A DNA stretch of 64,000 nt from positions 77,501-141,500 of the forward strand of contig CAUYUJ010017970.1 in NCBI GenBank assembly GCA_963575745.1, written 5' to 3'. A model generated the notes under the pieces. It ran no database searches. It was not told where the DNA came from and saw nothing but the letters and a program-made list of their open reading frames with translations. This DNA is from Prorocentrum cordatum (taxonomy: Eukaryota > Sar > Dinophyceae > Prorocentrales > Prorocentraceae). This document shows positions 34,822-50,815 of the stretch, piece by piece; the first letter of the stretch is position 1, and every line of letters starts with the position of its first letter. Both the position numbers and the translations under genes were made by a program.

Positions 34822-36120
34822 TCAATGCCGCAGCAGCGCTCGGTTCACGTAACTCACCTCAAGCTGGCTCATGCCAATGCCGCGGGAGTTGTAGTGAAAC
34901 GGCGGCTTGCCATTGGCCAGCGGCTGCGCCCCTCTGCAGAAGACCTTCTGGAGCGTGCTGCCGCTCACCGCGAACGTGTCCAGGAGGCGCTCCATCATCT
35001 CGGTGCGGTCCGCGATCCAGAACAGCCAGGCCGTCTGGTTCAGTCCCTTCAGGTACTCCTTTCCCAGACCGAAGAAGGTATAGTGGATCTCCATGTCTAG
35101 GGTCCGGATCTTCATCAGGGCCTCGGAGTCCGACAATAACCACCTGATCTGTTCCCACTCCGAGCCCTCGATGTCCACCTTCATATGGACGCTGAGCTCA
35201 CCGTGGGGCGCCAGCAAGCTGGCGAGCGTGGTGGCCGGGCGTTCGCCGAGATGTGTGGGCACCACGTCCCCGTGGGTGCTGAGGCACACCCTGTTGACAG
35301 AGTACGGCGCCTCGTAACAGATACCAAAGCGACCCGAGCATTTCTGAGATTTCCCTCTCGTCAGGTTGAGAGCATAATTCTCCCCACCTCGGCACCTGTT
35401 GCAGAAAGGCCCCTCGTTGTCCTGCGGTCTGCCGGTGCTTCCGTAGAAACAATCGAAGAGGTGTGTCGGTAAGTGGAGCCTGTTGCTCATATACTCGGAC
35501 CAATGGTCCCGAGTGTAGATCCCGAAGGAATATCCGACTAGCGGCGTCTTGTTGCCGCCGCTGGTCAGGGCCTCCTCGCACCAGGTGTAGTCGTAGGTGG
35601 AATGGAAGCCGCCGCACTCCCGCTCGGTCAGCGTGGCCCGGAACGCGTCCGCGGCGCGGTCGCCGAGGTCGGCCATCGGGCGATTGATCTCCACGGGCCA
35701 AGGCCACGCGCCCTCCGGCGTAGGCGCGGAGCCCGGGCAGGATCTCGAAGGGCCGCGCGGGCCGCGCTCCTTGGTCGAGCATGCGCACTTGGCGGCCAGC
35801 CTGTCCAGTGCCTCTCGGTCGCGCGGCTGCTCGTGCGCGCGCCGCACCCAGCGTCCCGCGAGCAGCGCGCCGCCGGGGCCTCCGAGCTTCCCTGCAGCCC
35901 CGACGCCCTGCTCAGCGGCACGGGGTGCCCGTCCGGTGGCTGGCACGCCCTGCCCCGCGCCGCCGCCAGGATCGGCCACTGGCTCGGGGGCACCGTCAGG
36001 TCGCCGCAGGAACTCAGCGCGCGCGCCCGCGGCATCCCAGCCGCTGGCCCACAGCCTGACCACGCAGACGATCACGAGCAGCGCGCAGAGCCCTATGCCG
36101 AGCCTCGTGGCGCGCCTCAT
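34822..36120 (-). CDS. Membrane-anchored methyltransferase-like protein (METTL24/Methyltransf_22-like), retrogene
   Basis: Intron-free frame of 432 codons, the best gene in the window. Residues 7-25 are a hydrophobic signal anchor (LGIGLCALLVIVCVVRLWA) after basic residues, implying a type II protein of the secretory pathway. A low-complexity stem runs to about residue 105. The C-terminal half has family-like motifs: GYSFGIYTRDHW from 196, FDC at 222-224, VDIEGSEWE at 315-323, LDMEIHY at 341-347 and EVSYVNRALL near the end. DIEGSEWE is typical of FkbM/Methyltransf_22-type S-adenosylmethionine methyltransferases; the acceptor is unknown. At least 12 cysteines suit a lumenal domain. A perfect DinoSL lies 95 bases upstream, so an mRNA was retroposed. 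The stop TGA (34822-34824) is next to GGA repeats and no poly-A remains. Family by motif only. Confidence 0.8.
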   Translation of the reverse strand: MRRATRLGIGLCALLVIVCVVRLWASGWDAAGARAEFLRRPDGAPEPVADPGGGAGQGVPATGRAPRAAEQGVGAAGKLGGPGGALLAGRWVRRAHEQPRDREALDRLAAKCACSTKERGPRGPSRSCPGSAPTPEGAWPWPVEINRPMADLGDRAADAFRATLTERECGGFHSTYDYTWCEEALTSGGNKTPLVGYSFGIYTRDHWSEYMSNRLHLPTHLFDCFYGSTGRPQDNEGPFCNRCRGGENYALNLTRGKSQKCSGRFGICYEAPYSVNRVCLSTHGDVVPTHLGERPATTLASLLAPHGELSVHMKVDIEGSEWEQIRWLLSDSEALMKIRTLDMEIHYTFFGLGKEYLKGLNQTAWLFWIADRTEMMERLLDTFAVSGSTLQKVFCRGAQPLANGKPPFHYNSRGIGMSQLEVSYVNRALLRH

Positions 36121-36215
36121 GGCGACCCTGCAGGCGGGGGCCCTGCGGGCGACGGCCGTGCCCTCCGCCCCCTATGCGGCGGCTGCGGCGGCCAGGGCAT
36201 CTCGGCTGGCCACGG

Positions 36216-36237
36216 CTTGAGCCAAAATGGCTACGGA
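36216..36237 (-). other. Relict dinoflagellate spliced leader (DinoSL), perfect
   Basis: The minus strand reads the complete 22-nt DinoSL, beginning TCCGTAGCC and ending TTTTGGCTCAAG, with no mismatch. In dinoflagellates this sequence is added to mRNA 5' ends by trans-splicing, so a genomic copy upstream of a gene marks reverse transcription and reinsertion of a mature mRNA. No SL RNA gene context (downstream donor GT and Sm site) follows; the next bases are the 5' UTR of the methyltransferase-like gene. Confidence 0.96.
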
Positions 36238-37989: not shown

Positions 37990-39590
37990 CATAAATACAC
38001 ATGCGTGGCACTGTGTATTTACATTGCGTGTACGCATGGCGTTGCGTAGTTACGTGGTGGTTACGCGTGGTGTTGTGTATTAACGTTGTGTGTATGCGTG
38101 GTGTTGTATATTTACGTTGTGTATATGCGCGGTGCTGCGTATTCACGTTGAGTATATGCGTGGTGTTGCGTAGTTGCGTTGCGTATATGCGTGGTGTTGT
38201 GTATTTACGTTGCGTGTATGCGTGACGTTGCATATTTACGTCGTGATTACGCGTGGTGTTGTGTGCTTGCGTTGTGTATATGCGTGGCGTTCTGCATTTA
38301 CGTTGTGCATAAGCGTTGTGTTGTGTATTTACAGTGAATAAATGCGTGGTGTTGTGCATTTGCGTTGCGTATATTCGTGGTGTCGTGGATGCGCGTTGCG
38401 CGTATGCGTGGCGTTGCATACGTACGTCGTGGTTACGCGTGGCGTTGTGTGTTTACGTTGCGTATATGCGTGGTGTTGTGTGTTTACGTTGTGTATATGC
38501 GTGGTGTTGTGCATGTACGTTGTGTACTTGCGCGGTGTTGTGTATTCACGTTGGGTATATGCGTGGTGTCGTGTATTTACGTTGAGTATATGCGTGGTGT
38601 TGTGTATTCACGTTGCGTGCACGCGTGGCGTCGCATATTTACGTCGTGTTTGCACGAGGTGTTGTGTGCTTACATTGTGTATTTGCGCGGCGTCGCATAT
38701 TTACGCCGTGTTCGCGCGTGGTCTTGTGTGCTTACGTTGTGTATATGCGTGGTGGTGTGTATTTGCGTTGTGAATATGCGTGGTGTTGCGTATTTACGTT
38801 GTGTAGATGCGCGGCGTTGCATATGTACGTCGTGTATATGCGTGGTGTCGTTTATTTACGTTGTGTATATGTGCAGTGATGTGGAGTCACGTTGTGTATA
38901 TGCGTGATGTCGCGTATTTGCGTTGCGTATATGCGTGGTGTTGTGTATGTACGTTGTGTATATGCGTCGTGCTGTGTATTTACGCTGCGTATATGTGTGG
39001 TGTATGTACGTTGTGTGAATGCGAAGTGTTGTGTATTTACGTTGTGCATGTGCGTTGTGTTGTGTATTTACGTTGTGTATATGCGTTGTGTTGTGTATTT
39101 ACGTTGTGTATATGCGTGGCGGTTTGTATTTACGTCGTGTTTATGCGTGGTTGTGTGTATTTGCGTTGCGCACACGCGTCGCGCTGTGTATTTATGCTGT
39201 GCATATACGCTGCGAATTTACGTTGAATATATGCGTTGCGCTGTGTATTTGTGCTGCGTATATGCGTCATGTTGTGTATCTACGCTGTGTATATGCGCTG
39301 TGCGTTTACGTCGTGTATATGCGTGGTGGTGTGTGTTTACGTTGTGTATATGCGTGGTGTTGTGTATTTACATGGTGTATATGCGCGGTGCTTGTTGTGC
39401 ATGCACGTTTCGCGCATGCGTTTTCACGCTGTGTATACGCGTGGCGTCGTGCATTCGCTTTGCGTATATGCGTGGTGTCGTGTATTTGCGTTGCGTATAT
39501 CCGTGGTGATGTGTGTTTACGGTGTGTATTAACGCTGTGTATTACGCATACTCACGTTGTGTGATTACGGTGTGCGTTAACGCTGCGTTC
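37990..39590 (+). repeat. 31-bp satellite (TACGTTGTGTATATGCGTGG type)
   Basis: About 50 copies of a 31-bp unit TACGTTGTGTATATGCGTGG + TGTTGTGTATT. Because 31 = 3 x 10 + 1, each unit shifts frame by one, so every plus frame reads a 31-residue period mixing LRCVYAW, TLCICVV and VVYMRG peptides with no stops, giving overlapping frames up to 205 residues. These are satellite artefacts. Confidence 0.95.
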
Positions 39591-39649
39591 TACGCAGGGT
39601 TAAACTTTTGTTTTGATTGGTTCGTGAAAACCACCAGGCAGCGCCCACC

Positions 39650-40195
39650 AAAAATGCGCGCAGAAGCATATGCACATAAATGCCGAATGGCAAATTAATT
39701 CACTTTTGCGCCGGGAAAACCTCTTGCCAGGGACAGAGCCATCGGCGCCAAACTTGGGGCCACCCCAGCAATGGACCGATAGCCTGCACCACGGCCCGCG
39801 AGAAAAGACGCGGCTCGGGTCGCACCAAGCAGCCGCCTCTAGCCACGCCCGGCGGCTAAGACATCCCAACGAATCAGACTGCACTGCCGCTCGCGAAACC
39901 CCCTGCCTGAGCAGGTGGGCAGCGCTCACCAAACTGCGCACAATACGCACATGCAAATAAGAGCCGAATGGCGAATACATTCGAACGCGGACGGAAGCAG
40001 ACACGCGCTGGGAGAACCTCGCACCAGAGGGACAGAGACGTCGGGAAGTTTCTTGGGGCAACCCCAGCAATGAACCGATCGCCTGCACCTCAGCCCACGA
40101 GAAAAATGGCCACGGGCGCGACCAAGCAAACGCCATTAGCCACGCCCCGCGGACCGCGGCCCGAGGGGCACAGCAGGATCGACGCGATCCTGCGC
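39650..40195 (-). repeat. Duplicated ~290-bp tail of the retrotransposon
   Basis: Two direct copies (about 39655-39920 and 39945-40190) share GCCGAATGGC, GAGAACCTCGCACC-like sequence, GGGGCCACCCCAGCAATG and AGCCACGCCC. They lie 3' of the RNase H remnant on the minus strand and may be tandem copies of the element's 3' UTR. Confidence 0.65.
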
Positions 40196-42112
40196 GAGGA
40201 CCCGATAGACATTCCCATCGGGTCTGTTGACATTTGTTTGCAAGACGAGTGAGCACCTCCCCACAGTGGGCGGAGACCTAAGATGGACACGGCCCGCCCG
40301 CGTTCGCAACGCGAGCGGGCGCGAAACAAGCACAGCACAGGCATCCAACCACGAGAGGGCCCCCTTGCAACTGTAGCCTAACGAGGGCATGCATTTGGGA
40401 CCCCGCCCCCAACTTCGCTTGCGCGGCGAGAACCCGACTAACCACATCGTTGCGAGCGGGGTCACTGACCAACTGCAGATCGGGAACCGGCGGGCCCCCA
40501 CGGTTGCGCCCCCACAGGCGCCCGCAGTCCGCCAGCTCATCCCCAAGACACACAACCCGAGAAACCAACGCATTGAGGACGGGCCTGCAGCTGAGAGGGG
40601 AGTGCCTTGGTCGAGACTGGCGGAAACAGCCGCGCTCTCGGCCGCCGCATCCGCCCTGGCATTACCGTGTCCATGGCGTGCCGCGGCGCGTCTAAACTGA
40701 AGGTAAACCACTGTCGCATGCCCCTTTATCTTGACAACTTCAACGCCCCCAGCCCCAGTCGTCAACCAGCCTCCAAAACTGCCTCCAAAGGTGCGCGCGA
40801 ATGGATGCACACGCACAGGCGGCCCCACGGCCACGCCCCAGAAACCCGCCAGCCACGAAGGCCGGGTCGGGGAGGAGGCGGACAGGCGGGGACACAAAGC
40901 GAAGAGCATGGATAACTGCCATGAGCTCATCAACGGCAGGCCGGCGCGGCGTCACAGCCCGCCGCCCACAGCCTCTTCTGAGGCAACTCTCCTCCCACAA
41001 TGGCGCTGCCAAGGTGCCTTTGTCGCTGCGCGGCCAGCCATCTCGTCGCCCGGCAAAGCCTCCAGGGGGCCAAAGAACACACCATGGGGGAACTATCTTG
41101 CACGCGATGATCTGAAACATCGCACGCCTGCCAGCCGCTCTGAACACAAGCTCCTGAATGGCGTCGGCGCAGAAGTCGGACGGGTTGACGTCAGCCCCAT
41201 CAGGGCAAATCCAAGACGCAGCCGACGCAGCAGCGATACCCACGCGCCTGAGAGTGGCCCACAGAACACAGAAGGGCCCCCCCAATGGAAGACCAGGGGC
41301 GCTGCAACGCAGACAGGTGCCCAAGGGCCTCACGGAGCCCAAAGTCAAAAGCCCCCCAAGGCATCCAAAGGTGTCAGAGAGCGCGCAGATAGGCGGTAGA
41401 TGGGGCCCAGGCGGGGAACGTTTTTTTGACACAACAGAAAATGAGAGCCCACGCGAGCTCAGCCACCGCGGGCCCGGGCGAAGGTTCTCCGAGCCCAAGC
41501 CGCTGGAGGGGGCCATGACGACAACCAACTTGCCACCACTTCTCCCACTCAGCCTCGAGGCCATCGATCGACTCGAGCGAGGTGCAAGGTCGCAGGGCAC
41601 CATGACAGAGGGTCGAAGACTGCCGGGGGCCAGGGACAGACGAGAAGCGATAGCGGGCCGACATTCCTCCAACCGAATGCGCGTCAACCACCCGCCCCAT
41701 TTTCCCTCCTTGGCCCGCGCGTAGAGGCGGCGCTGGTTCTCGGCCCCCTCGCCCGCAAAGCCGGCGAGGCAGCGAGCCGCAGACGCCGGCGGAGGAGACG
41801 CTGTCGCAGCATTGCCAACCAGGCGGCATAGACGGCAGCGCCCGGAAGCCGACAAAACCGCGAAAGACGACCCGCTGCGGCAACCAACTGAGATCCGCGC
41901 GAGCCCGTCGGCTCACGAATGGAATCTGCCAGAATGCCCCAGACCTTCCGCCACCAACGCACAACGGGCGAAATCGTGGGGAACTTGGGCGGGGCAGGGG
42001 AAAACGTGGATTCCCACCAGATTTGCAGGGGCCTGTCTCTGCCCACAGGCCCGAGCAGCTCCCCCCGAAGATCTGGCGAATGGCAATGCCACTGGGCCTC
42101 AGCAGCCCTCAA
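40196..42112 (-). pseudogene. Reverse transcriptase / RNase H remnant of a non-LTR retrotransposon
   Basis: Three frames carry successive pieces on the minus strand. From 42112: WWRKVWGILADSIREPTGSR, an endonuclease-RT linker-like segment. About 41580: IDGLEAEWEKWWQVG, then about 41400 YLRALSDTFGCLGGLL, and 41310-41240 LGGPFCVLWATLRRVG, resembling the N-terminal part of a LINE RT. No YxDD or FADD catalytic motif was found, so the palm is probably deleted. RNase H: DELMAVIHALRFVSPPVR near 40935, VEVVKIKGHATVVYLQF near 40740 and GNARADAAAE near 40665, with a frame break near 40750. The order is typical of RNase H-bearing LINEs. Inactive. Confidence 0.72.
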
Positions 42113-42124
42113 GAACGCGCCCCA

Positions 42125-42962
42125 TCAACCCTGGATGAGCCGCTCGGGGCCGGCGCGCCACTGCCCGACATGGCCCCGGGGATCAGCGTCGGGAGGGGGG
42201 GGGGGGGGGGCAGACGCAATGGGCGGCCCAAAGGTGGAACGCTTGGGAACCTGAACGAACCCGACCTGACACAAGGGCACCATAGAGGGCAGAACGAGCC
42301 TGACAAGAAGGTGAAGAGAGATGGGAATCCCCTGAACAACTCCCGCCCTCGCGCGACTTGCAATCTGGCGCGACGCAACAAAGTAGTCGACGCAGCGCGC
42401 GGCAGGCCTGCAGGCGCCGCGCTCGGAAGAGACGAGCGCGGCATCCAACGCATCTGCCCGCGCCGTCTAGCGCGGGTCCTCCGCCGCGAAATTCAAACCG
42501 CCACCGGCGACCAAGGGCGCGCTCAAGGCCTTGAGCCGAGCGCCGATCTTGGAGAGGATGGCCCAGCCATGCTAATCAATGCCGACAGAGTGGACAAGAT
42601 CAACATTCGCGATGGCGAAGCCACCGCGGAGGAGGCCGCAAACGCGAGGCATCGACACCCGAGCAGGTACCACATGGCAATCGAAATGCTCAAACTTGGC
42701 CGGTCCAATACGCCCCGCCGTCGAAGTGACCAGGCCCCATGAAGGATTGCCGAGCATAGGCCGAGCCGCACGCGCAGAGGCTACCCAACCTGACTTGCGC
42801 ATCTTGCTTTCCAGAGACTCGGAGGCAAGCTGCAACACACGCGACTCTTGCAACAGCAAAGCATCACAATAAATGGCTTCGTCCAGGAAGGCGTCGAGCC
42901 CGACTTGGCCTCCGACATCGGCCGCGATGATAGACCACTGCTTAGAACGCCAGACGCAAAAT
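42125..42962 (-). pseudogene. Endonuclease domain of the retrotransposon, with two stop codons
   Basis: Immediately after ORF1, one frame over, the minus strand reads FCVWRSKQWSIIAADVGGQV, then DALLLQESRV (42838-42866), then SMPRVCGLLRGGFAIANVDL. A TAG follows at 42572-42574. The same frame continues with ARLKALSAPLVAGGGLNFAA and EDP, a second TAG at 42467-42469, then RCVDYFVASRQIAS and GIPISLHLLVRLVL. The order LQE, GDxN-like, VDYF, SxH is that of an APE-type endonuclease. The GDxN position reads GGLN and the Asp of the final SDH motif reads Leu, so key residues are changed as well. No ATG starts this frame. Confidence 0.78.
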
Positions 42963-44102
42963 TCACGACGCTGAGTCGGGGTCGACAAACGGGGCGGCTT
43001 TGAACTTCTTGGGCGCAGCATCGCTAGAGCCTCGAAGAACGTTGTCACACTGATTCCTGGACAGACCCTTGGACTGCAAAAACTCCCCCCGGCCATCACC
43101 CGAGGCGAGACGCTGAAGGAAGGAAGAAAACTGTTTATCACCAGGCTGGCCGCCGACAACACCCCGCGCTCCTCCGCCGCCCCCGCCCCGAGCCCCCCCC
43201 CCCCCGCAAGGCACAGGGGTTGCAGGCTCAGCACCGTCGGCGAATGGCGAGGCAGCCGCGCCGAGGCCATCTCCTCCAAAGATTGCCTGCGCTGCTGCCT
43301 CGATGGATAGTTCGGGCAACGGATAGTGCACTGGCTGCGGCTCATGGGCGTCGACCATACCGCCGTCGCCACCGAGCTCGTCGCCGTCGTCACTCTCGCC
43401 ATCGGAAGAGGCAGGCTGCAGAAGACCAGCGCGAGTGGCCATGAGCGAACGAAGGGAAGCAGCCAACTTGCTGTCGAGCGCCTCGAACTGCATGAGGAGA
43501 GCGAAACCAGCACCATCAGGAGACTCAACGACACCACCGCGCTGGGCAGCAGACCGTCCAACCACCGAGCCGCTGACCGCAGTCCACGCTGCGGTGGCTT
43601 TCGCGGCGAGGACCCTCTCGTTCTCCTGCAGCTGCTCGAGCTTACCCTTGAGGCGGACCAGTTCCCTGAACTTGTCCTGCACCTCCTTGTCGAGCTTGTC
43701 AGCCTTCTGCTCAGCTTGGAGCAATTCACGTTTCGCCTCGTCGTACGCCAATTGCGCGTGCCGAGCCACCGCCTTGGGGTCGCCAGCAGCCAACGCGCGC
43801 TGAACTGCGACACGGGCGCGCTGGCTGGGCCCCAGGATGGACTTGGCGGACTCGAAATCTTCTCTGGACATATAAACAAAGACTGCGAGCTGCGTGGTGT
43901 CGTGCATTTTGTGTTTGGGTTTGCCTGCCTTGGGCGGCCCATTGGCCCACTCTCCTTGCGCTGGCCTCTGACGAGGAGAAGCAGGCACAGGAGGACGCTC
44001 AGCACCACACTTGTAGCAAAATTTCTTGAACGACAAATTGGTCTTCAACCCACACTTCTTCTCGGGACAGCGCCAGACATCGCCGCGACTGAGACTGCCC
44101 AT
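42963..44102 (-). CDS. Retrotransposon ORF1, zinc-finger and coiled-coil protein
   Basis: Intact 379-residue frame. Residues 10-32 (W10, C12, C17, C29, C32) form a RanBP2-like zinc ribbon, WxC(x4)C(x11)C(x2)C, a plausible nucleic-acid-binding module. Residues about 115-172 form a charged coiled coil (ELLQAEQKADKLDKEVQDKF and on), suited to multimerisation. A low-complexity Gly/Ala region and a basic C-terminus follow. It is directly upstream of the endonuclease frame, as an ORF1 would be. The start ATG at 44102 is the first in frame after the leader, and DinoSL relicts are 132-174 bases upstream. Retention of ORF1 while ORF2 is decayed suggests recent loss or chance. A host gene fused to a dead element is the alternative. 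Confidence 0.72.
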   Translation of the reverse strand: MGSLSRGDVWRCPEKKCGLKTNLSFKKFCYKCGAERPPVPASPRQRPAQGEWANGPPKAGKPKHKMHDTTQLAVFVYMSREDFESAKSILGPSQRARVAVQRALAAGDPKAVARHAQLAYDEAKRELLQAEQKADKLDKEVQDKFRELVRLKGKLEQLQENERVLAAKATAAWTAVSGSVVGRSAAQRGGVVESPDGAGFALLMQFEALDSKLAASLRSLMATRAGLLQPASSDGESDDGDELGGDGGMVDAHEPQPVHYPLPELSIEAAAQAIFGGDGLGAAASPFADGAEPATPVPCGGGGARGGGGGGARGVVGGQPGDKQFSSFLQRLASGDGRGEFLQSKGLSRNQCDNVLRGSSDAAPKKFKAAPFVDPDSAS

Positions 44103-44234
44103 GGAAGGTGCGAACAGGGGGAAGTATGCTCCACCAGGTGCTCACATAAAGTGGAGTATGCAAGCTGGCCTGACAGGCTGATTGGCTGAAAACTGTTGGG
44201 GGCCGCATATCCCCCTCGCCAGAAAGGTCAGGTC

Positions 44235-44254
44235 CTTGAGCGAAACGCTACGGA
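44235..44254 (-). other. Degenerate second DinoSL relict
   Basis: The minus strand reads TCCGTAGCGTTTCGCTCAAG, a 20-base version of the leader with an internal deletion and changes, directly abutting the perfect copy. Tandem relicts record more than one round of trans-splicing and reinsertion, the inner copy being older. Confidence 0.85.
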
Positions 44255-44276
44255 CTTGAGCCAAAATGGCTACGGA
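44255..44276 (-). other. Relict dinoflagellate spliced leader (DinoSL), perfect
   Basis: All 22 bases match the leader (TCCGTAGCC ... TTTTGGCTCAAG on the minus strand). It is the outermost preserved 5' end of the retrotransposon copy; beyond it is a CTC microsatellite. Confidence 0.96.
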
Positions 44277-44277
44277 T

Positions 44278-44345
44278 CTCCTCCTCCTCCTACTCCTCCT
44301 CCTCCTCCTCCTCCTCATCCTCCTCCTTCTCCTCCTCCTCCCTCT
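44278..44345 (+). repeat. CTC microsatellite
   Basis: About 22 CTC-like units abutting the DinoSL. Confidence 0.95.
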
Positions 44346-44970
44346 CGTCCTCCCCGTCCTAAATCCACCCCTCCTCCCGCACGCTGTCCCCGCGTGCTGC
44401 GTTGGTCGCGGGGCAGCCCAGCCGCGGTCTGCCAAGCCCAATCCCCCCCTTGTCGTCTGAGGTGGAACGATACAGTCGGACCTAGCACAGAAGAACATCC
44501 TTCAAGAACATGAGACCCTCCGTCGGCCAAACACACAGAACATACAAGGGTACCCTCCCCCAGGATGCCCAAGAACCTCCAACAAACACGAAGAACACTA
44601 GGATACCCTCCCCGACCCGATCTCGACCTTATACATCGGTCCGACTGTAGGGGAGTCAGGGGGGCGGCCGCGGAAGGAGGGGATCGTGGGGGCGGCACTC
44701 AGGACAGGATGAATCGGACTGACTACTGGTGCTGCCCCTACTCCGGCACACGCTAGCATACATTACGGATCCGTAGGTCGCCGGATCCACGGATCGGGGA
44801 AAGCCCCCCCCCGAAAAAGGAACCAGCGCCGCTTCATCCAGCGACTCGGCGGGTCGATTTTGCATTGGATCAGGAACCCAAGAATTCCGGCAGCGCCCCC
44901 TTTGAGGGGGAACGATAACGGGGACGGCGACGGGTGGGACTCACCGCAGATAGATCGGCGATAGGCCCCA
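44346..44970. other. Spacer, no gene recognised
   Basis: Contains a ~75-bp direct repeat: CAAGAACATGAGACCCTCC...GGTACCCTCCCC near 44500-44560 and CACGAAGAACACTAGGATACC near 44585-44610. Confidence 0.4.
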
Positions 44971-50793: not shown

Positions 50794-50815
50794 CTTGATC
50801 CGAGATGGCTACGGA
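50794..50815 (-). other. Possible degenerate DinoSL relict
   Basis: The minus strand differs from the 22-nt leader at three positions (19 of 22), keeping TCCGTAGCCAT at the 5' end and a terminal CAAG. It lies in a ~460-bp insertion (50699-51160) absent from the paralogous block at 46620-46660. No gene follows on the minus strand. Confidence 0.5.

Follow-up and report, generated by a model that had tools for sequence, protein, structure and literature searches.

The presence of two copies of the host's spliced leader at the head of a dinoflagellate retrotransposon raises the question of how the leaders came to stand there, and what their number says about the past of the element. In dinoflagellates, the leader (DinoSL) at the start of an RNA marks a trans-spliced mRNA (PMC6050394; this and the other articles cited here were available in part). 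The locus considered lies in a window, i.e. the whole stretch of DNA analysed, of 64,000 nucleotides from Prorocentrum cordatum (positions 77501-141500 of contig C17121), and the genome searched comprises 4.13 Gb in 21,875 contigs.

The leader pair and the element behind it

Read on the minus strand from position 44276, the window carries the DinoSL (TCCGTAGCCATTTTGGCTCAAG), then without any gap TCCGTAGCGTTTCGCTCAAG, and after a further 132 nt the ATG of ORF1 at 44102 (table 1). This confirms the starting point of an earlier, sequence-only reading of the locus, namely that a perfect leader abuts an altered one upstream of ORF1. The element thereby shows the feature by which DinoSL retrogenes are recognized, a copy whose 5' end consists of an exact or relict DinoSL. 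The match to the exact 21-nt leader covers 44255-44275(-), and adding the first T extends it to 44276. When up to three mismatches are allowed, the leader has three matches in the window, compared with none in 100 shuffles. The inner copy is 20 nt long and four edits away from the 21-nt leader; none of 5000 plus-strand stretches and none of 5000 shuffles reached its local score, compared with 0.08% of 20,000 minus-strand stretches, among which the leaders themselves were counted. The CCGTAG head is retained in the inner copy, which is thus not of the 15-nt relict type (CCATTTTGGCTCAAG). A literature search of limited coverage found the string TCCGTAGCGTTTCGCTCAAG in no paper.

Three further ideas about the inner leader were dropped. 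Its status as a separate SL variant hinged on a sole exact match among viral contigs, judged a chance one, on a GC-rich contig (L004) whose reading frames resemble those of bacterial phage; a hairpin kept by paired changes was discarded as random edits keep the stem in 21-26% of trials; and a third relict behind the inner leader was given up because 15-28% of random stretches or shuffles scored at least as well.

Table 1. Features of the leader-headed element in the window.
Feature	Position	Strand	Basis
5' flank, (AGG)n on the element's sense strand, presumed insertion target	44277-44353	(-)	TRF
Outer DinoSL, 22 nt without mismatch, start of the element	44255-44276	(-)	exact leader match
Inner leader, full length but altered, TCCGTAGCGTTTCGCTCAAG	44235-44254	(-)	alignment, local score
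5' UTR, conserved motif GGACCTGACCTT.CTGGCG.GGGGG..GCGGCCCCC, short GGGG/CCCC stem	44103-44234	(-)	
ORF1, 379 aa from ATG	42963-44102	(-)	reading frame
AP-endonuclease (Exo_endo_phos-like) domain of ORF2, stops inside	42365-42865	(-)	own profile
RNase H remnant, one frameshift, ends approximate	40600-40950	(-)	PF00075
3' region, two imperfect tandem copies, 71% identical	39637-40152	(-)	

The description of the element as a retrotransposon copy is borne out by its endonuclease domain (141.7 bits, E = 1.9e-43 with a profile from sibling loci, later rounds of which could include the window copy; no matches in antisense and reversed controls) and by the RNase H remnant. Pfam's own endonuclease model gave the window copy only E = 0.17, and PF00075 matched the RNase H as two joined pieces (E = 1.2e-4; 22.7 bits, below the Pfam cut-off of 25.8), neither of which matched singly. 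Since ORF2 is broken by stops and frameshifts and neither Pfam nor our own profiles matched a reverse transcriptase (RT) in the window copy, the element is, judged from its sequence, a damaged LINE retrotransposon; RT is present in 18 loci of the leader sample described below by one profile and in 12 by another, and has thus probably been lost from this copy.

The ORF1 frame is open over 42963-44141 and contains a cysteine motif and a coiled-coil-like stretch, both recognized by eye only, and no Pfam family at E ≤ 0.01. Its weak similarity to another leader-headed locus, L071 (28.9%, E = 1e-7), starts within the translated leader. Protein relatives were found neither for ORF1 among 7,996 candidates scored (E 0.001) nor for the ORF2 part among 7,991 (E 0.01), and none turned up in viral contigs, where the query, a 490-aa frame that is only partly coding, was weak. 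The GGGG/CCCC stem of the 5' UTR shows no compensatory pairs, and neither a 3' end nor a target duplication was found for the window copy. Directly behind the presumed 3' end lies a long array of 31-bp units (38001-39529).

Copies of the family elsewhere in the genome

Searching with 377 bases from the 5' end of the element gave 956 first-look candidates, of which 40 loci (the window included) were scored. The alignments of 36 reach query position 6 or lower, i.e. into the leader, and the other four, which stop short of it, were left out of the comparison of 5' ends. As both leaders were part of the query (42 of its 377 bases), it favours leader-bearing copies. Compared were the window copy and the best-scoring 20 of the 35 other leader-reaching loci.

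In all 21 copies (the window and the best 20 of 35), an outer leader, exact or mutated, meets the inner leader at one fixed junction base. Two leaders are present in 20 of these 21, and three in L108, whose extra leader is truncated; none has a single leader or lacks one. The outer leader is exact over 21 nt in 10 of 20 copies from the same set, L108 not being counted. A ladder of zero, one, two and three leaders, as anticipated by the sequence-only reading, was thus not found for this element, and the contention that its lineage has been trans-spliced and reinserted at least twice is unsupported: the inner leader is common to all 21 copies from the window and the best 20 of 35 and therefore provides no count of recent insertions. 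The outcome named as speaking against that reading, a fixed non-leader start in other copies, was not seen either, every one of the 21 (again the window and the best 20 of 35) beginning with a leader.

Mean pairwise differences among the copies amount to 0.096 in the outer leader and 0.164 in both the inner leader and the UTR. Distances in the inner leader and the UTR correlate with r = 0.23 (P = 0.054), those in the outer leader and the UTR with r = 0.09 (P = 0.31), and those in the two leaders with r = 0.17 (P = 0.13). Variants of the inner leader follow subfamilies, the longer GTTTCTCTGGCTC occurring in L118-L121 and L123 and GTTTCTGGCTCAG in L112, L113, L117 and L122. Changes in the outer leader are mostly private, nine of its 22 columns having only singleton changes and three having shared ones (e.g. 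in L109/L110 and L115/L124). The lower divergence of the outer leader would fit, weakly on its own, a renewed outer and an inherited inner leader. The inner leader joined to the start of the UTR, searched as one gapped pattern without mismatches, occurs 13 times genome-wide and not at all in the reversed control. In the explanation that we favour, the inner leader is likely to be an ancient leader that became incorporated into the element and is now inherited in the family.

Spliced leaders across the genome

The genome contains 14,218 exact 21-nt leaders (7,201 + 7,017). In 1,202 places the exact leader is followed by the exact 15-nt relict CCATTTTGGCTCAAG, and in 837 by any base and CCGTAG, the head of a full-length second leader, where about 3.5 would be expected with six random bases; the reversed control gave zero for all three patterns. 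One hundred of the 14,218 exact leaders, listed in contig order and hence not a random draw, served as a sample of loci. At least one further leader follows the first in 28 of the 100 (0.18% at random positions under the same rule), this being one 15-nt relict in 18 cases, one full-length leader in seven, two relicts in two, and a relict plus a full-length leader in one. In these counts L098 is taken as full length despite a 4-nt spacer, L087 looks full length by eye and falls under the threshold, and the overlapping L043/L044 and the tandem-unit copies L060-L062 are entered separately. By eye, some 5' ends look alike except that one has a relict and the other none (L072/L036 and L013/L027). 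In L090, the leader and two perfect 15-nt relicts form a stack without decay beside a CCT tract. Loci L060-L062 (contig C39) belong to a tandem unit of about 3 kb with an exact leader at the same position in each.

Four profiles were applied to the 60 sampled loci in which the sequence behind the leader exceeds 3.4 kb, and a LINE endonuclease or RT is encoded in 40 of them, with no match in antisense or reversed sequence; L043 is not counted as a LINE, its domain sitting behind the next leader. No further leader is present in 28 of the 40 LINE loci, whereas six have one relict, five a full-length leader and one two relicts; for the 20 loci without a LINE domain, the corresponding numbers are 16 without a further leader, three with a relict and one with a relict plus a full-length leader. 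The stack of L045, a LINE with both endonuclease and RT, decays inward, from the leader through a perfect relict to a relict with four changes. Leader numbers of one, two and three do exist in LINEs other than the window element. The other outcome named as speaking against the sequence-only reading, a leader pair without the element, occurs in a loose sense: relict-type stacks are present at four of the 20 loci in which no LINE domain was found, as is known of host retrogenes, and the full-length pair also heads other, very diverged LINE lineages.

Pfam recognized Exo_endo_phos in 14 and RVT_1 in two of the 68 longest ORFs. When nine ORFs were scanned singly, that of L032 was above the cut-off for both families, those of L063, L015 and L045 were above and those of L019 and L021 below it for Exo_endo_phos, and those of L033, L022 and L047 matched no Pfam family, yet our own profiles find the endonuclease in all three.

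The full-length leader pair in other LINE lineages

An inner leader of the same full-length kind occurs in L022, L025, L055, L058 and L071, all with a LINE endonuclease; L099 and, by eye, L087 resemble the pair, with about 240 nt covered. Locus L010 has the UTR motif and an inner leader without its first 7 nt, as if cut after its AG. RT is present in the relatives L055, L022 and L032. With a UTR-motif probe drawn from the full-length-pair loci themselves, the window element (WIN1), L010 and L022 each score 50 and L055 scores 40, the background maximum being 28 in 3000, and L058 (25) and L025 (22) fall within the background's upper tail; L071 is outside the 20 best matches. The proteins of these loci share 22-40% identity over matched stretches of at least 53 residues, with the exception of L010 and L055 (58% in the main frame). 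A single origin of the full-length inner leader was tried on a weakly supported endonuclease tree of 21 rows (12 without a further leader, six full length, three relict) and rejected, with five label changes versus a shuffled mean of 5.3. Low protein identity combined with no grouping in the tree suggests either selective retention of the 5' module or its exchange between LINE lineages.

Microsatellites at the 5' flank

TRF reports the repeat in front of the window element as a CTC array at 44278-44353 of the plus strand, and lists no (AGG)n between 39529 and 44278. Among the window copy and the best 20 of the 35 others, 19 of the 21 have (AGG)n as the 5' flank and none has CCT; the two without a clear (AGG)n are L108, whose flank is mostly N, and L114, with a degenerate AGG-rich sequence. 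One repeat motif in one orientation, as is characteristic of microsatellite-specific elements, is thus seen at the 5' side. The 30 nt upstream of the 100 sampled leaders contain (CCT)n in 40 loci, (AGG)n in 19, another simple repeat in eight and none in 33, the background being 0.2% for CCT and 0.4% for AGG in the sampled loci, and 1.7% and 0.5%, respectively, in the window. With other families grouped by short motifs, CCT flanks 14 of 17 members of family B, AGG four of five and CCT one of family D, and neither repeat any of the five of family E, while family C has one locus with AGG, one with CCT and one with none; the wider motif of the window element goes with AGG in only one of three assigned loci. 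As the flanking repeat differs by family, these sequences suggest target microsatellites that are family-specific, with a preferred orientation.

Two further motifs were noticed in leader-tagged families. The motif CGGATACCGCTAGTCCGCGG is found in L005, L011, L031, L033, L037 and others, mostly beside CCT tracts, and CCCGACGACCGCGAGTC in L015, L035, L044, L065 and L100, beside CA-rich or mixed sequence.

How the leaders may have been acquired

The structure itself, its presence in the 21 copies compared, the two junction types and the (AGG)n 5' flanks are direct observations. DNA copies that begin precisely with the leader imply a template RNA ending in it, and movement via a leader-bearing mRNA is the best reading of the leader start in all 21 copies (the window and the best 20 of 35) together with the 40 LINEs among 60 leader loci. 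The central proposal of the sequence-only reading, that the element moves as a trans-spliced mRNA, is in this respect supported: we think that the RNA of the window LINE is quite probably trans-spliced by the host, and that such leader-bearing LINEs probably move as trans-spliced mRNAs whose outer leader is renewed in each cycle.

A copy within an (AGG)n tract would be transcribed from outside, the host would add a fresh spliced leader to the LINE RNA, and the leader-capped mRNA would serve both for translation and as the template of reverse transcription; insertion into another (AGG)n tract would then yield a DNA copy with the leader as its exact start. Splicing at the final AG of the old leader (after CTCAAG) would replace the outer leader, keeping the leader number constant and leaving no trace; splicing at the internal AG (after CCGTAG) would leave a 15-nt relict, and the stack would grow. 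The outer leader is probably renewed by splicing after its own CAAG. The two AG acceptors would account for one leader in most LINE loci, two in the window family and occasional stacks, and as traceless replacement is possible, the leader number would give at best the minimum number of events that a lineage has gone through. Several observations count against this explanation: the (AGG)n flank is rich in purines and offers no pyrimidine tract before the leader, neither a 3' end nor a target duplication was found for the window copy, no (AGG)n is listed between 39529 and 44278, the distance correlations are weak, and three outer-leader columns hold changes that copies share.

Alternatively, LINE RNAs might receive leaders simply as dinoflagellate mRNAs generally do and insert equally well without them, the link being incidental. 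We regard this as unlikely, despite the well documented recycling of host-gene mRNAs with relict leaders (PMC6050394, PMC12014239, PMC3229502; texts available in part) and the lack of a LINE domain in 20 of the 60 leader loci, since in all 21 copies (the window and the best 20 of 35) the start coincides with the leader instead of varying with the point of truncation, a regularity that the leader-containing query itself favours.

An element-encoded imitation, with both leaders being element DNA copied from an upstream start without host trans-splicing, appears improbable. The same two-leader structure in 20 of the 21 copies (from the window and the best 20 of 35) is what encoded sequence would give, selection could hold the outer leader canonical and produce the same low divergence, and a few outer-leader changes are common to copies. 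This reading does not explain why stacks grow in exact steps of 15 nt, with the cut following the AG of the leader (1,202 sites; L045, L108), why the inner leader of L010 is shortened, and why one and the same exact leader heads both diverged LINE families and loci with no LINE domain.

We give little credence to the addition of both leaders at once, by a single trans-splicing from a tandem-SL RNA gene, although tandem-SL genes of two and three units have been reported from Fugacium kawagutii and the available part of PMC6616646 offers that reading for stacked leaders. The inner leader is non-canonical and varies with subfamily, and among the 100 loci the full-length copy directly behind the leader sits in LINE-domain loci (L022, L025, L055, L058 and L071), L099 having the 5' motif by eye and L098, with its 4-nt spacer, being the exception. 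LINE RTs are known to switch templates at 5' ends, and on reaching the 5' end of the RNA they might jump onto SL RNA or the leader of another mRNA and so add it without trans-splicing, but the relict-type junctions fall precisely after the old leader's AG, as splicing predicts, making a jump the least credible of these readings.

Building on host trans-splicing of the LINE RNA as the preferred explanation, we raise, tentatively, the wider possibility that a whole group of dinoflagellate LINEs has ceded its 5' end to the host: it would have no promoter of its own before the leader, land in fixed microsatellites and be transcribed from the flank, trans-splicing would cap the RNA and restore the same 5' end in every cycle, and the inherited inner leader, with CAAG followed by TCCGTAG, would mark the acceptor between them; the group might then be a source of RT for mRNA recycling, and most genomic leaders might be LINE starts instead of retrogenes.

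Relation to known systems

With its ORF1, ORF2 endonuclease and RNase H remnant, and RT in relatives, the window element resembles APE-type LINEs, from which it differs in opening with a host spliced leader. The elements SLACS, CRE and NeSL, which insert into SL genes, likewise bring a spliced leader and a LINE together; here, however, the inserted copy begins with the leader, is preceded by (AGG)n and does not lie within an SL gene. A class with SL exons as targets is mentioned in PMC4640811, of which part was available, as are the Togen (TG)n and HERO families, which insert beside one microsatellite motif in one orientation, as the window family presumably does; the named families belong to groups with a restriction-like endonuclease, whereas the window family has an AP endonuclease and (AGG)n. 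Cer1 of Caenorhabditis elegans is likewise a retrotransposon whose transcript is capable of SL1 trans-splicing, but according to the available part of PMC3315495 the trans-spliced RNA is a spliced 2.4-kb message, the 8-kb RNA not being trans-spliced, whereas in the window family the leader sits in integrated DNA.

A further parallel is provided by DinoSL retrogenes and mRNA recycling (Slamovits and Keeling 2008, as presented in the available parts of PMC6050394, PMC12014239 and PMC3229502), in which genomic DinoSL likewise stands at the 5' end of a retrocopy and stacked relicts trace repeated trans-splicing and reinsertion. Relict leaders and mRNA recycling are thus already known from these partial texts, including the 15-nt relict from use of the AG in CCGTAG (PMC3229502, PMC12014239) and genomic relicts longer than 15 nt (PMC6616646). 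Our case differs in that the tagged unit is a LINE and not a host gene, the inner leader of the window family is full length and inherited, and the 5' flanks are a specific microsatellite. A literature search, of limited coverage and with texts partly available, found no report of leader-tagged LINE families; PMC7789003, in the part available, mentions both DinoSL and non-LTR elements without joining them as one thing.

Genomic DinoSL has been used as a tag of host retrogenes (PMC6050394, PMC12014239; in the parts available). As 40 of 60 exact leaders head LINEs, the leader alone does not identify a retrogene, nor need the leader number count rounds. The need for RT in mRNA recycling is discussed in the available part of PMC3942190, which points to Ty1/copia elements; leader-tagged LINEs would be a concrete candidate for this source. 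If RNA data agree, host trans-splicing would be a step in the life cycle of a LINE.

Other leader sites

A second exact DinoSL in the window (36216-36237(-)) lies just upstream of an intronless frame at 34825-36171(-), which spans 449 aa from stop to stop and has no Pfam match. CCT-rich tracts flank this leader and frame on both sides, the picture that a retrocopy inserted into a CCT microsatellite would give; a second relict behind the leader was considered and dropped (3-8% by chance). At 50794-50814(-), GTATCG follows a leader with three mismatches, an arrangement of exon and GT donor that the remnant of an SL RNA gene would be expected to show.

Leaders were also noticed outside dinoflagellate contigs. 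The AT-rich viral contig IMGVR_UViG_3300045993_001077 (L001) has on its minus strand (2700-2920) two exact DinoSLs at a distance of 147 bases, and the leader at 2746-2766 heads a GC-richer frame, as if the virus had captured a copy of a leader-tagged dinoflagellate mRNA. On a contig filed as Dehalococcoidia (L003:4334-4354), GTACG follows the DinoSL, and the neighbouring sequence resembles, by eye, eukaryotic small-subunit rDNA; this is probably a contamination with an SL RNA gene. Another Dehalococcoidia MAG contig (L002:1-60) begins with (TCA)n and an exact DinoSL and is possibly a chimera.
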